The translations under genes and the position numbers were made by a program. A DNA stretch of 64,000 bases from the NCBI RefSeq assembly GCF_020567425.1, contig NZ_JAJCVJ010000001.1:1612001-1676000 (forward strand), written 5' to 3'. The notes beneath the pieces are model-generated. The model was not told where the DNA came from, did not search any database, and saw only the letters and a program-made list of their open reading frames with translations. This document shows, piece by piece, positions 1 through 57,150 of the stretch. Position 1 is the first letter of the stretch, and each line of letters begins with the position of its first letter. The DNA is from Salinirubrum litoreum (GTDB lineage: Archaea; Halobacteriota; Halobacteria; Halobacteriales; Haloferacaceae).

Positions 1-200
1 GGGAAGCGCGCACCGAGTGTCTCGTGAGGGAACCGAACGAGACTCAGCGAGAGCTTCGCTCTCGCCAGACGCGGCGGGTCGAGACGCCGGGGGCTTTCAC
101 CGCTTGTCGTCTGCAACTCACTCTACAGCAACCAGCTCGGCCGGGAGCTTTCACCTCCTGCCCTCTGCAACTCACTCGACCGAGTTCACCACGTAGCAAA
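1..200 (+). repeat. Dispersed hairpin-array element, copy A (3' part only)
   Basis: This is the right-hand end of a non-coding repeat whose left part lies outside the window. It has a hairpin GCGAGAGC-TTC-GCTCTCGC near 49-67. The 3' arm CGAGACGCCGG (80-90) is followed by GGG and CTTTCA (94-99), identical to the 3' arm of copy B at 17076-17095. The tail is duplicated: GCTTTCACC followed by CTGCAACTCACTC occurs near 93-123 and again near 147-175. The linker GAGGGAACCGAAC at 26-38 recurs in copy E. The element ends against the 3' end of tatC. No protein-coding reading is convincing. Confidence 0.7.
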
Positions 201-16391: not shown

Positions 16392-17210
16392 ACGCGGTGG
16401 GTTCGTGCGTTGAGTGGTCCGAACCGCGAGACTACGAGTCAGTTTTCGTGTGTCGTCGCGTGGACGTGTGGACCGCGAGAACGACTGCTGTCGATGGCGT
16501 CGGGGACTGCGACAGCAACCGCGACTGCGACAGCGACGACACCGCAGACCACAACAGCAACGCTACTCGTGCTAGCGCGAGGAACCGCCACAGCACCGCC
16601 ACAACACCGCCACAACACCGCAATCGAACGAGCCACAGCCTCCCCAACCGACTGCGTGACTCACGGGAGCGCGCCCACGAGGGGCGCGCTCGGTTGCGTT
16701 ACTCATCCCTCGCACGCGTCAAGTCGCGCGCGCCGACCGCACCGCGACAGCACTGCCGACCTTCCATCACAGCTCACGAAACACTTACCAGTCGCGTGGG
16801 CTGGCGCGACCTCGTGTCGCGCCGACGGTCGCAGGTAGGCCATCGCTGATCCGACTGGTCCACCGGGTGTTGCACGATGGGGCGCAAATTCCACCGGGTG
16901 GGACTGAAAGGGGCCGGCGTCTCGGTCCCGCCCCGACGACGTAAGCAGAGCGAGAGCGAAGCTCTCGCCAGCAGTCGGGCGACTCCCGTGTCGCCCGACA
17001 ACACTGGACTGAATGAGCGCGCGGAGCGAAGCGACGCGCGCTCGTGAAGGAAGCGCGCAACGAGTCGCGGCGGGTCGAGACGCCGGGGGCTTTCACCAGT
17101 CGTTGTCGCCGACAGATTCCACTGAGTTTGCATCGCCAACCGACTTCACCGAGTGCTCACCGACTGATCCGACCGAGTTCTCACCAACCGACTCCACCCA
17201 ACGATTCCAG
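16392..17210 (+). repeat. Dispersed hairpin-array element, copy B (full)
   Basis: A non-coding element of about 0.8 kb. It starts with a CACCGC/CGACAGC tract (16500-16640), then CTCCCCAACCG (16640-16650) and a hairpin GAGCGCGCC/GGCGCGCTC (16667-16691). A first long-range stem ACCAGTCG/CGACTGGT (16787-16794 with 16852-16859) encloses GGCGCGAC/GTCGCGCC. A second long-range stem pairs TGAAAG (16905-16910) with CTTTCA (17090-17095), and CCGGCGTCTCG (16914-16924) with CGAGACGCCGG (17076-17086), leaving a symmetric GGG/GGG loop. Inside are three hairpins: GCGAGAGC-GAA (16950-16968), GTCGGGCGAC (16974-16999) and GAGCGCGCG (17015-17043). ORFs here are incidental. The tail faces the 3' end of the permease gene. 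Confidence 0.8.
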
Positions 17211-27119: not shown

Positions 27120-28022
27120 GTGATATCGGAGACCGGGACCGCGTTCCGGACTGTGACAGCTACTGCAACCGCACCACAGACCGCGACTGCACCAGCACCG
27201 CTACTCGATCCGGTACACACGGACTATTCGACCGCGACAGCGACAGCACCGCGAACCGCAACCGCGACAGCACGGCACAGCACCGCACCTCGGTCCTCCC
27301 CAGCCTCGGGGCGCGCCTGAACGCGCGCCCCTCCCTCGCGCGTTTCTCGCGCGAGGGAGTTCGGGCCGAATCGCACGCAACTCGGAGTTTATAAGCAATC
27401 TCGGTCATTTTTATACCCCTCACAGACGGCAGGTTAGTCACCCGCTATCGTCGAATTTGGAACCCGCACAGGACGCGATCTGGTGGCGACCGGAACCGAG
27501 CAGTGTCCGAACACCGTGAGGACCTGCTCGCAGTTCGGTCGCCAGCAGTCGGGGAGGAGTGGGGAGTACTGCGACTGCCGGGTTCCAGACCGGCAGACGG
27601 CTCACCGGGTGACGACCAGTAGCGACACGATGGGACGCACATCTCGGGTGGGACTGAAAGGGGCCGACCGCTCGACCCGGCCCCGACGCCGGTAGCCGGG
27701 CGGGACCGGAGGTCCCGCTGGAAACCGGCGCGTCGCGCCGGTGGCAGAGCGAGACCAGAGGTCTCGCCAGCAGTCGGGCGACTCCCGTGTCGCCCGACGA
27801 CACGGGACTGAACGAGAGCGCGGAGCGAAGCGACGCGCTCTCGTGAAGGAAGCGCGTGGTTCGAGAGACACCAAGGACGTCTCTCGTCATCACGAGAGAG
27901 CTTCGCTCTCTCGAACGACACCAAGTCGCGGCCGGTCGAGCGGTCGGGGGCTTTCACCACCTCGTTGTCCGCGACCGATTCAGCAACGTACTCCGCGACC
28001 GATTCGACTGAGTTCACGTCCG
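27120..28022 (+). repeat. Dispersed hairpin-array element, copy C (full)
   Basis: A non-coding element of about 0.9 kb. The CACCGC tract (27150-27290) runs into CTCCCCAGCCTCG (27296-27308), then hairpins GGGGCGCGC (27308-27331) and CTCCCTCGCGCG (27331-27359). Two TATA-like boxes follow near 27388 and 27408. A first long-range stem pairs GGAACCCG (27459-27466) with CGGGTTCC (27579-27586). The second pairs TGAAAG (27655-27660) with CTTTCA (27951-27956) and CCGACCGCTCG (27664-27674) with CGAGCGGTCGG (27937-27947), again with a GGG/GGG loop. It encloses seven hairpins between 27700 and 27913. The tail faces the 3' end of the SpoIIM-domain gene. No convincing protein frame exists. Confidence 0.8.
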
Positions 28023-46074: not shown

Positions 46075-46230
46075 CGTGGTTGTGACTGTGATCGTGACCC
46101 GCAACCCGCGACAGCACCGCTACTCGATCCGGTGCAACCGGAATATTCGACCGCGACCGCCACAGCACAGTAACTGCGACCGCACCGCAGACAGCACTGC
46201 ACCGCACCTCGGCCTCCCCAGCCTCGCACA
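46075..46230 (+). repeat. Dispersed element, copy D (tract and box only)
   Basis: This short copy has GACAGCACCGCTACTCGATC (about 46113-46132), shared almost exactly with copy C near 27191, followed by a CCGGTGCAACCGG-type dyad and ATTCGACCGCGACC. It then has CTCCCCAGCCTCG at 46214-46226, identical to copies C and E. The hairpin array and the long-range stems are missing, and the adjoining gene's 3' end follows directly. It lies downstream of the M28 gene and faces the convergent hydrolase gene. Confidence 0.65.
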
Positions 46231-47814: not shown

Positions 47815-48116
47815 CTCAGCAGCCGTCACCTCCTGTACGCCCACCGGAGACCTGCGTCCTGCCACCAGCAGCACACGCGACGGTCTCGTCGTGGGTCCGG
47901 GTCGTTCGTCCCGCTGTACGATCTCTCTGGACTGTCCGGGTTATGGTAGGAGACTGGCCGTTCCGAGTCGACGTCGTTCGACGCCGTTGCACAGCCAGTA
48001 CCGGAGACGTTGCGCAGAGACGCCGATAAGTGTTAGCTATACGAAATTATAGTGGCCGGCGTGAGACGATCACCGACGGGGGGCGGCCGCGAGCGACTCT
48101 GCTCGGGACCGCGATC
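47815..48116. other. 302-base intergenic region with 32-base repeat
   Basis: Between two minus-strand genes. It contains repeat copy R1 (48024-48055) plus about 28 further bases of weaker similarity to the region before the monooxygenase start. TTATGG near 47940 could be a TATA element for the gene at 47814. No additional ORF is convincing; a plus-strand frame starting in the repeat (MLAIRNYSGR) is produced by the repeat itself. Confidence 0.45.
48024..48055. repeat. 32-base repeat with dyad, copy R1
   Basis: Identical at 31 of 32 positions to 49993-50024. It contains CTATA (48037-48041) and TATAG (48048-48052) as an inverted repeat around a 6-base centre, preceded by CGATAAGTGTTAG. It is located downstream of the SnoaL-like gene. 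It may be a regulator site or a duplicated promoter. Confidence 0.75.
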
Positions 48117-49957: not shown

Positions 49958-49992
49958 TGTTCACCCAGTACCGAGAACACGTGTGGAGACGG

Positions 49993-50024
49993 CGATAAGT
50001 GTTAGCTATACGAGATTATAGTGG
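49993..50024. promoter_or_regulatory. 32-base repeat with dyad, copy R2, upstream of monooxygenase
   Basis: Second copy of the sequence at 48024-48055, one mismatch. It begins 36 bases upstream of the monooxygenase start, so it is in promoter position. The CTATA/TATAG dyad lies at about 50006-50021. A regulator of the monooxygenase operon is expected to bind here. Confidence 0.65.
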
Positions 50025-50085
50025 TCGAACTGAGAGACCGGGCGACTGCGGTGTGAGAGTGACCCCACGGCTTCGACACGAACCA

Positions 50086-56429: not shown

Positions 56430-57150
56430 GGGTGAAACTCCCACCCGACTCTGTGACCCATCACGCAGTTACTGCCCGTCACCCATCCTGTCGTCGTAGA
56501 ATCGGAGCCCGGCAGTCGCGGTATTCTCCCCTCGCGGCCCCGACTGCTGTCGATCGAACGACGAGGAGGGCACTCGCTGTCGCTCGGACACTGCTCTGTC
56601 GGGTCGCCAGCAGATCGCGTCCAGCGCGGGTTCCGAGCCTGTCGTCGTGTGAGTGAGGAGTGGTGCCTGCGCGTTCACCTCTGAACGTAGCGCGCGCGAC
56701 TGACGCGCGCGAGGTCTTCCCGAGGGAACCGAACAGGGCGAGACCGAGGGTCTCGCTGGCAGTCGGCGCGGCGCGCCGACGACAGAGCGAGAGCGAAGCT
56801 CTCGTCAGCAACCGGCGCGGAGCGCCGGTGACGAAGGCTCCTCAGAGCGTGCCGCTGACGGTGGAGAATCGCGGGCGGTGCCGAGAGCGATTCGAGGCTG
56901 GGGAGGGTGAGGTGCGGTCGCGGTGCTGTCTGCGGTGCGGTTTCTCGCGCTACGATAGTCGCGGTCGCGGTGGCGGTCGCAGTCGCGGTTGCGGTGGCTG
57001 TGCAGTCACGGTCGCAGTCTGCGGTAGTGTCGCAGTCGCGGGTCACCGCACTCTCACTGTCGCACAGCAGTCGCTCACGAATGTAGTTCGGGGGAAAGGG
57101 GGAATGCGGGCGCGTGTGACGCCCACCAGGTGGTCCATCTGCTAGGTACA
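56430..57150 (-). repeat. Dispersed element, copy E (rearranged)
   Basis: On the minus strand the order is: CACCGC-rich tract (about 57070-56910), CTCCCCAGCCTCG (56905-56893), a hairpin array, then GGAACCCG (56634-56627) with its near-complement CGGGCTCC (56511-56504), and GTTTCACC near 56440. The array (56691-56829) has CGCGCGCG, GCGAGACC-GAG, GTCGGCGC, CGAGAGC-GAA and ACCGGCGC-GGA hairpins, spaced by short CAG-containing linkers. Its loops are purine-rich on the plus strand, opposite to the tract, so the array is inverted and displaced relative to copy C. The 56586-56634 block matches 27459-27510 of copy C. It faces the 3' end of hemB. Confidence 0.72.

Follow-up and report, generated by a model that had tools for sequence, protein, structure and literature searches.

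A 64,000-nt stretch of the Salinirubrum litoreum genome (contig NZ_JAJCVJ010000001.1, positions 1,612,001 to 1,676,000; hereafter the window) carries copies of a repeat in which short, widely spaced complementary segments lie upstream of a hairpin array. The initial annotation read these segments in copies B, C and E as one long-range stem that is re-paired between copies, which raises the question of whether they form a genuine helix and whether that helix is the same one in all copies. On re-reading the sequence, all six segments were found exactly as described (Table 1): ACCAGTCG pairs with CGACTGGT in copy B, GGAACCCG pairs with CGGGTTCC in copy C, and in copy E, on the minus strand, GGAACCCG pairs with CGGGCTCC with one A.C mismatch. 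A single 8-bp pair of this kind carries little weight, because perfect 8-bp inverted repeats with loops of 40-130 nt number 377 in the GC-rich window (mean 280, range 250-330, in 20 dinucleotide shuffles). The stem is significant because its pairing is kept across the copies of the family.

Table 1. Features of the repeat copies, in positions of the window
Feature	Position	Strand	Evidence
Copy B, divergent upstream block with GGTTGGGGAGG ('type III')	16500..16720	-	
Copy B, type I clamp 5′ arm ACCAGTCG	16787..16794	+	kept in 45/46 type I copies
Copy B, hairpin inside type I module GGCGCGAC/GTCGCGCC	16803..16823	+	all cells paired, exchanges
Copy B, type I clamp 3′ arm CGACTGGT	16852..16859	+	clamp count
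Copy B, linker CACGATGGGTCGCA..CGG, partly common to types I and II	16860..16897	+	alignments
Copy B, near-invariant core GTGGGACTGAAAGGGGC	16898..16914	+	58 exact GTGGGACTGAAAG in genome
Copy B, P1 5′ strand CGGCGTCTCG	16915..16924	+	P1 covariation
Copy B, hairpin array	16925..17075	+	sequence; fold
Copy B, P1 3′ strand CGAGACGCCG	17076..17085	+	P1 covariation
Copy B, right end GGGGCTTTCACC	17086..17097	+	right-end count, 286 cores
Copy B, degenerate 3′ tail	17098..17200	+	
Copy C, divergent type III block	27125..27375	-	
Copy C, type II clamp 5′ arm GGAACCCG	27459..27466	+	clamp count
Copy C, P2 5′ strand	27480..27491	+	helix 1
Copy C, P3/P4 5′ strands	27497..27508	+	helix 2
Copy C, P4/P3 3′ strands	27520..27530	+	helix 2, 7/11 pairs with double changes
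Copy C, P2 3′ strand	27537..27548	+	helix 1, 4/12 pairs with double changes
Copy C, type II clamp 3′ arm CGGGTTCC	27579..27586	+	clamp count
Copy C, core GTGGGACTGAAAGGGGC	27648..27664	+	
Copy C, P1 5′ strand CGACCGCTCG	27665..27674	+	P1 covariation
Copy C, hairpin array	27675..27936	+	fold, z -11
Copy C, P1 3′ strand CGAGCGGTCG	27937..27946	+	P1 covariation
Copy C, right end GGGGCTTTCACC	27947..27958	+	sequence
Copy E, type II clamp 5′ arm	56627..56634	-	
Copy E, clamp 3′ arm, one mismatch	56504..56511	-	
Copy E, core collapsed to CGGGTGGGAGTTTCACC, array lost	56431..56447	-	sequence
Copy A, P1 3′ strand and right end; core about 150 nt before the window (C1:1611851)	72..101	+	

Two alternative 5′ modules, each closed by its own clamp

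Seventy-four copies are readable together with 330 nt of upstream sequence; 46 carry a type I 5′ module, as copy B does, 26 a type II module, as do copies C and E, and 2 were left unassigned by the filter; one of these two, L083, is a type II in disturbed form. The two modules do not align with each other, and apart from the core and the linker around CACGATGGGTCGCA they have nothing in common. The assumption that the segments of B and C are homologous in position was overturned by the alignment of more copies, which places B in type I and both C and E in type II. Because these are two different, non-alignable 5′ modules, the difference between B and C is not covariation at homologous positions, and we reject it as evidence: the stems are alternative modules at the same place, not one re-paired helix. 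What survives of the earlier reading, that the sequences differ and the pairing is kept, is a modest re-pairing inside each type.

In the S. litoreum genome, both arms of the type I clamp, ACCAGTCG/CGACTGGT, are readable and kept in 45 of 46 copies, and both arms of the type II clamp are readable in 25 of 27. Clamp cells were counted by script, MAFFT having placed the type II 5′ arm one column off in several rows, and L053, L047 and L062 were dropped from the counts. For type I, 350 of 360 cells are paired, compared with a mean of 345.6 when the 3′ arms are shuffled among copies (1 of 2000 shuffles as high; this count and the following ones are optimistic in that they ignore the relatedness of copies), and 3 cells carry double changes (12/2000 shuffles). 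Pair 1 occurs as A-U 39 times, C-G twice, G-C once and G.U three times; pair 8, with seven A.C cells, is probably no true pair. The type II clamp, GGAACCC/GGGTTCC, has 172 of 175 cells paired (shuffled mean 168.3; 14/2000 as high) and 6 compensatory double-change cells (1/2000 shuffles), with pair 5 found as C-G 16 times, U-A 6 times and U.G 3 times. The re-pairing inside each clamp type is real but modest.

Inside the type II clamp, two helices have 93.0% of their cells paired (86.2% when shuffled) and 41 double-change cells (11.0 when shuffled), and their pairing falls to 25-51% when they are slid out of register. The type I module is 98.4% paired with 14 double-change cells, compared with 5.0 in shuffles, and its internal hairpin is paired in 100% of cells, two of its pairs covarying by C-G/G-C and A-U/G-C exchanges. 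The type I clamp encloses 44-223 nt, a range that stems from added hairpin units of the kind CACCTCGGCGGCGTGGGGCCGCCTCGGGCA. The folds of copies C and B are far more stable than those of their shuffles (z -11.05 and -6.22, respectively); the clamp is present in the minimum-energy fold of copy C and open in that of copy B. The paired segments of copies B, C and E are real helices and form the closing stem of the first domain in this folded, non-coding repeat, and the earlier proposal that a further domain, closed independently, precedes the hairpin array holds in that its closing helix is maintained in nearly all copies of both types.

In a module-model search of the 148 genomes of the family, type I and type II modules occur in S. 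litoreum only, and a single model of the 'second stem' fails outside this genome, neither module being convincingly found in the other 147. Weak matches in G367 and G416 were judged spurious; one consists of hairpins beside a tRNA-like sequence and the other of an apparent coding stretch, with no core at either locus. We read the 5′ clamp modules as genus-specific. The genomes G104 and G322 have a different 5′ module, with GGCTGGGGAGG directly before the core; in the window, such a block lies upstream and faces away. The motif GGYTGGGGAGG, the hallmark of another repeat block situated divergently upstream of the copies, has four matches in the window (0.01 expected), at 16639-16649, 27295-27305, 46213-46223 (-) and 56896-56906 (+). 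One upstream block (46080-46226) stands alone, without clamp module or core; over 57 nt it has 89% identity with the copy C block, and it is possibly the copy D of the initial annotation. The window also contains a 50-nt direct repeat (48017-48066 and 49986-50035; 88% identical, 1969 bp apart).

The conserved core and the P1 domain

The order-wide core GTGGGACTGAAAGGGGC...GGGGCTTTC lies 3′ of the 5′ module and consists, from 5′ to 3′, of the core, the P1 stem enclosing a variable hairpin array, and GGGGCTTTC. In the 4.06-Mb S. litoreum genome, GTGGGACTGAAAG has 58 exact occurrences (29 on C1, 27 on C2 and one each on C3 and C4) and 93 with at most one mismatch, compared with 4 for the reversed-string control. 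Contigs C3-C5, about 0.87 Mb of the 4.06 Mb, hold just 2 of the 58 exact cores.

P1 is the best-proven helix of the repeat. In the S. litoreum copies, 535 of 580 cells are paired (shuffled mean 444), and in 200 copies of other genomes 1816 of 2000 (1123 when shuffled), with 654 double-change cells and 108 distinct 5′ strands among 177 well-formed helices; sliding P1 by one base lowers the pairing to 757 or 660 cells. The two-module structure therefore stands, the stem noted initially being the clamp of module one and P1 closing the second module. A right end lies within 700 nt of 286 distinct cores, the insert between core and right end measures 3-557 nt, and the array is wholly lost in some copies (L074, L082 and copy E). 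No Rfam family matched the window at gathering score; the only matches were weak and sub-threshold.

The hairpins of the array are almost perfect and show rapid turnover, as would fit an origin of the arm complementarity by mutation, in which template switching or gene conversion repairs quasi-palindromes and compensatory changes need no function. However, the two arms of the clamp are separated by 44-223 nt that contain other hairpins, the clamp stays while the interior changes, and G.U intermediates occur at covarying pairs. We regard such a purely mutational origin as very unlikely.

Distribution, genomic placement and two-armed forms

Of the 392 genomes of the order, 185 contain the 16-base core, as do 62 of 95 genera, 33 being without it, and a genome has up to 68 copies; named hosts include Haladaptatus, Halorussus, Haloarcula, Halonotius and Halomarina. 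No core was found in viral contigs, and the whole copy-B query matched nothing in phage records and, among plasmid sequences, gave only short matches, to two plasmids. Copies are intergenic, with no fixed orientation relative to their neighbours. Between S. litoreum and G104, we found no two-sided conservation of neighbours; about 10 one-sided neighbour pairs were seen (by eye, 21 rows, >55% identity), with about 4 expected by rough estimate.

In genus g37, G074 carries a copy of about 350 bp at a site where G114 has 2 bp and G066, G124 and G017 have 32-38 bp; all 7 relatives whose fetched locus includes both flanks lack the core, and the G074 site shows no evident target duplication. In two other genomes, at L366 (G041) and L372 (G130), the flanks of this site are separated from each other in the genome, as though rearranged at the repeat, and these rearrangements beside two copies suggest that the repeat may also shape genome order. 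A locus of genus g39, read by eye in 14 genomes, is filled in G233, G162, G241, G131, G330, G177 and G201; these copies have one or two arms, and some are decayed. Only ends remain in G218, G157 and G083, and the site is empty in G091, G274, G125 and G230. The filled sites are flanked by ACAGYCAGAAAGCC repeats, which may be part of the element itself; as 3 of the 4 empty sites have one such repeat, a deletion between the repeats is just as possible as an insertion that brought a duplication, and the empty sites could partly be losses.

Two-armed forms, in which divergent cores lie 24-33 bp apart, comprise 31 of the 158 cores sampled from sets other than those of S. litoreum, G104 and G322. Their outer ends match as terminal inverted repeats; in L138 and L204 the match is perfect for 18 bp, and in 30 two-armed forms from other genera 5-9 of the 9 bases beyond GAAAGCCCC agree. 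The S. litoreum copies showed no terminal inverted repeat at their left edge, and no autonomous version with the same ends was found in 1.47 Mb of fetched loci. Beside a two-armed element of Haloarcula rara, the left end AACAGCCAGAAAGCCCC occurs five times at 45-bp spacing (L202, 1486-1694).

The near-terminal palindromes, the lack of a clear target duplication and the presence of Y1 genes would be compatible with a derivative of IS200/IS605 (PATE) that is moved by a Y1 transposase via hairpins in single-stranded DNA, and PATEs are known in haloarchaea (PMC3119063). We nevertheless consider a PATE origin highly unlikely: none of the 15 TnpB and 3 Y1 genes of the S. litoreum genome lies beside a copy, and the terminal inverted repeats of the two-armed forms are no PATE trait. 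The idea of a TnpB guide RNA was rejected on the same lack of adjacency.

Nature of the repeat

We propose that the repeat is probably a MITE- and BOX-like foldback element, non-autonomous and mobile or amplifying, whose clamp closes its self-contained 5′ domain. The part of this explanation that was observed directly consists of the helices, the number of copies, their modularity, and the orthologous sites found filled or empty. The repeat is built from a 5′ module (here type I or II), the near-invariant core GTGGGACTGAAAGGGGC, the strongly covarying P1 with its variable hairpin array and the right end GGGGCTTTC; as such an element it would spread between genes, gaining and losing hairpin units inside the clamps and keeping the clamps themselves. 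Selection would keep the fold, needed either for spread or for being tolerated, and a compact single-stranded or RNA fold may be recognised by a trans-acting factor.

Alternatively, the copies could represent a host RNA gene, that is, a large multicopy family of structured, trans-acting non-coding RNAs with two paralogous 5′ domains, spread by ordinary gene duplication. The helices covary on several levels, the core is near-invariant, and 10 of the 27 type II copies have a TATA-like box 20-75 nt before the clamp (for example, window 27384-27420), whereas neither of two control windows yielded one. Among 145 distinct P1 helices, G.U exceeds A.C (35 vs 20), although this asymmetry is not significant (p 0.058) and the same measure gives no strand bias in the hairpins of the array. 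Moreover, none of 45 type I copies has a TATA-like box, positions differ between genera, 33 of the 95 genera do without the repeat, and many copies are decayed or collapsed. A host RNA gene is unlikely in our judgement. For the foldback element that we favour, action as RNA is hinted at by the G.U excess of P1 and the TATA-like boxes of type II, set against boxless type I copies and unbiased array hairpins. We also consider it quite improbable that the copies belong to an order-wide mobile family of structured RNAs, in which a putative trans-acting protein would bind the core, genus-specific 5′ clamps would be interchangeable, and the fold of the transcript would be mobilised or protected.

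Almost half of the haloarchaeal genomes sampled contain the repeat, and our motif and topic searches of one open-access library found no description of it. Its hundreds of natural variants can be used to ask if such repeats are kept for their RNA fold, their DNA fold or neither.

Comparison with known repeat systems

The ACTGAAAG end resembles a crRNA handle; a CRISPR array or CRISPR-like repeat was ruled out, as the 58 exact motifs are dispersed and form no arrays. REP/BIME and other MITE families are intergenic and feature head-to-head pairs and terminal inverted repeats. The repeat described here is likewise intergenic, with head-to-head pairs and, in its two-armed forms, terminal inverted repeats, but it is larger and has expandable hairpin arrays, and no dedicated RAYT-like gene was identified for it.

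The PATEs and SMRs of Haloquadratum are transposase-free and present in many copies (PMC3119063). The repeat shares with them the haloarchaeal host, the missing transposase and the high copy number, together with the lack of a clear target duplication at one site, and no partner is known for SMRs. In contrast, the S. litoreum copies lack a prominent terminal inverted repeat and lie outside IS605 elements, and their internal stems vary by compensatory change. SMR-A, of about 110 bp with prominent inverted ends and inserted in PATE/IS605 palindromes (PMC3119063), was ruled out; the haloarchaeal repeat is longer, intergenic and not beside TnpB. PATEs and SMRs are the nearest described archaeal repeats, and the ends and location of the repeat fall outside their definitions as far as tested.

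BOX of Streptococcus pneumoniae is a modular intergenic repeat with about 125 copies per genome and a strong RNA-like fold, in which a variable number of internal modules lies between fixed end modules, and in related species other end modules surround the same inner BOX module (PMC3049150, which also mentions BIMEs). The haloarchaeal repeat resembles BOX in having end modules and a variable inner part, seen in its clamp loops (44-223 nt) and core-to-right-end insert (3-557 nt). It differs from BOX in being archaeal and GC-rich, with a core conserved over an order and a P1 stem that covaries rather than being fixed in sequence, and neither a target duplication nor a partner insertion sequence was found for it. 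The likeness is one of organisation, and in this sense the repeat is an archaeal counterpart to the bacterial BOX elements, with a greater diversity of modules.
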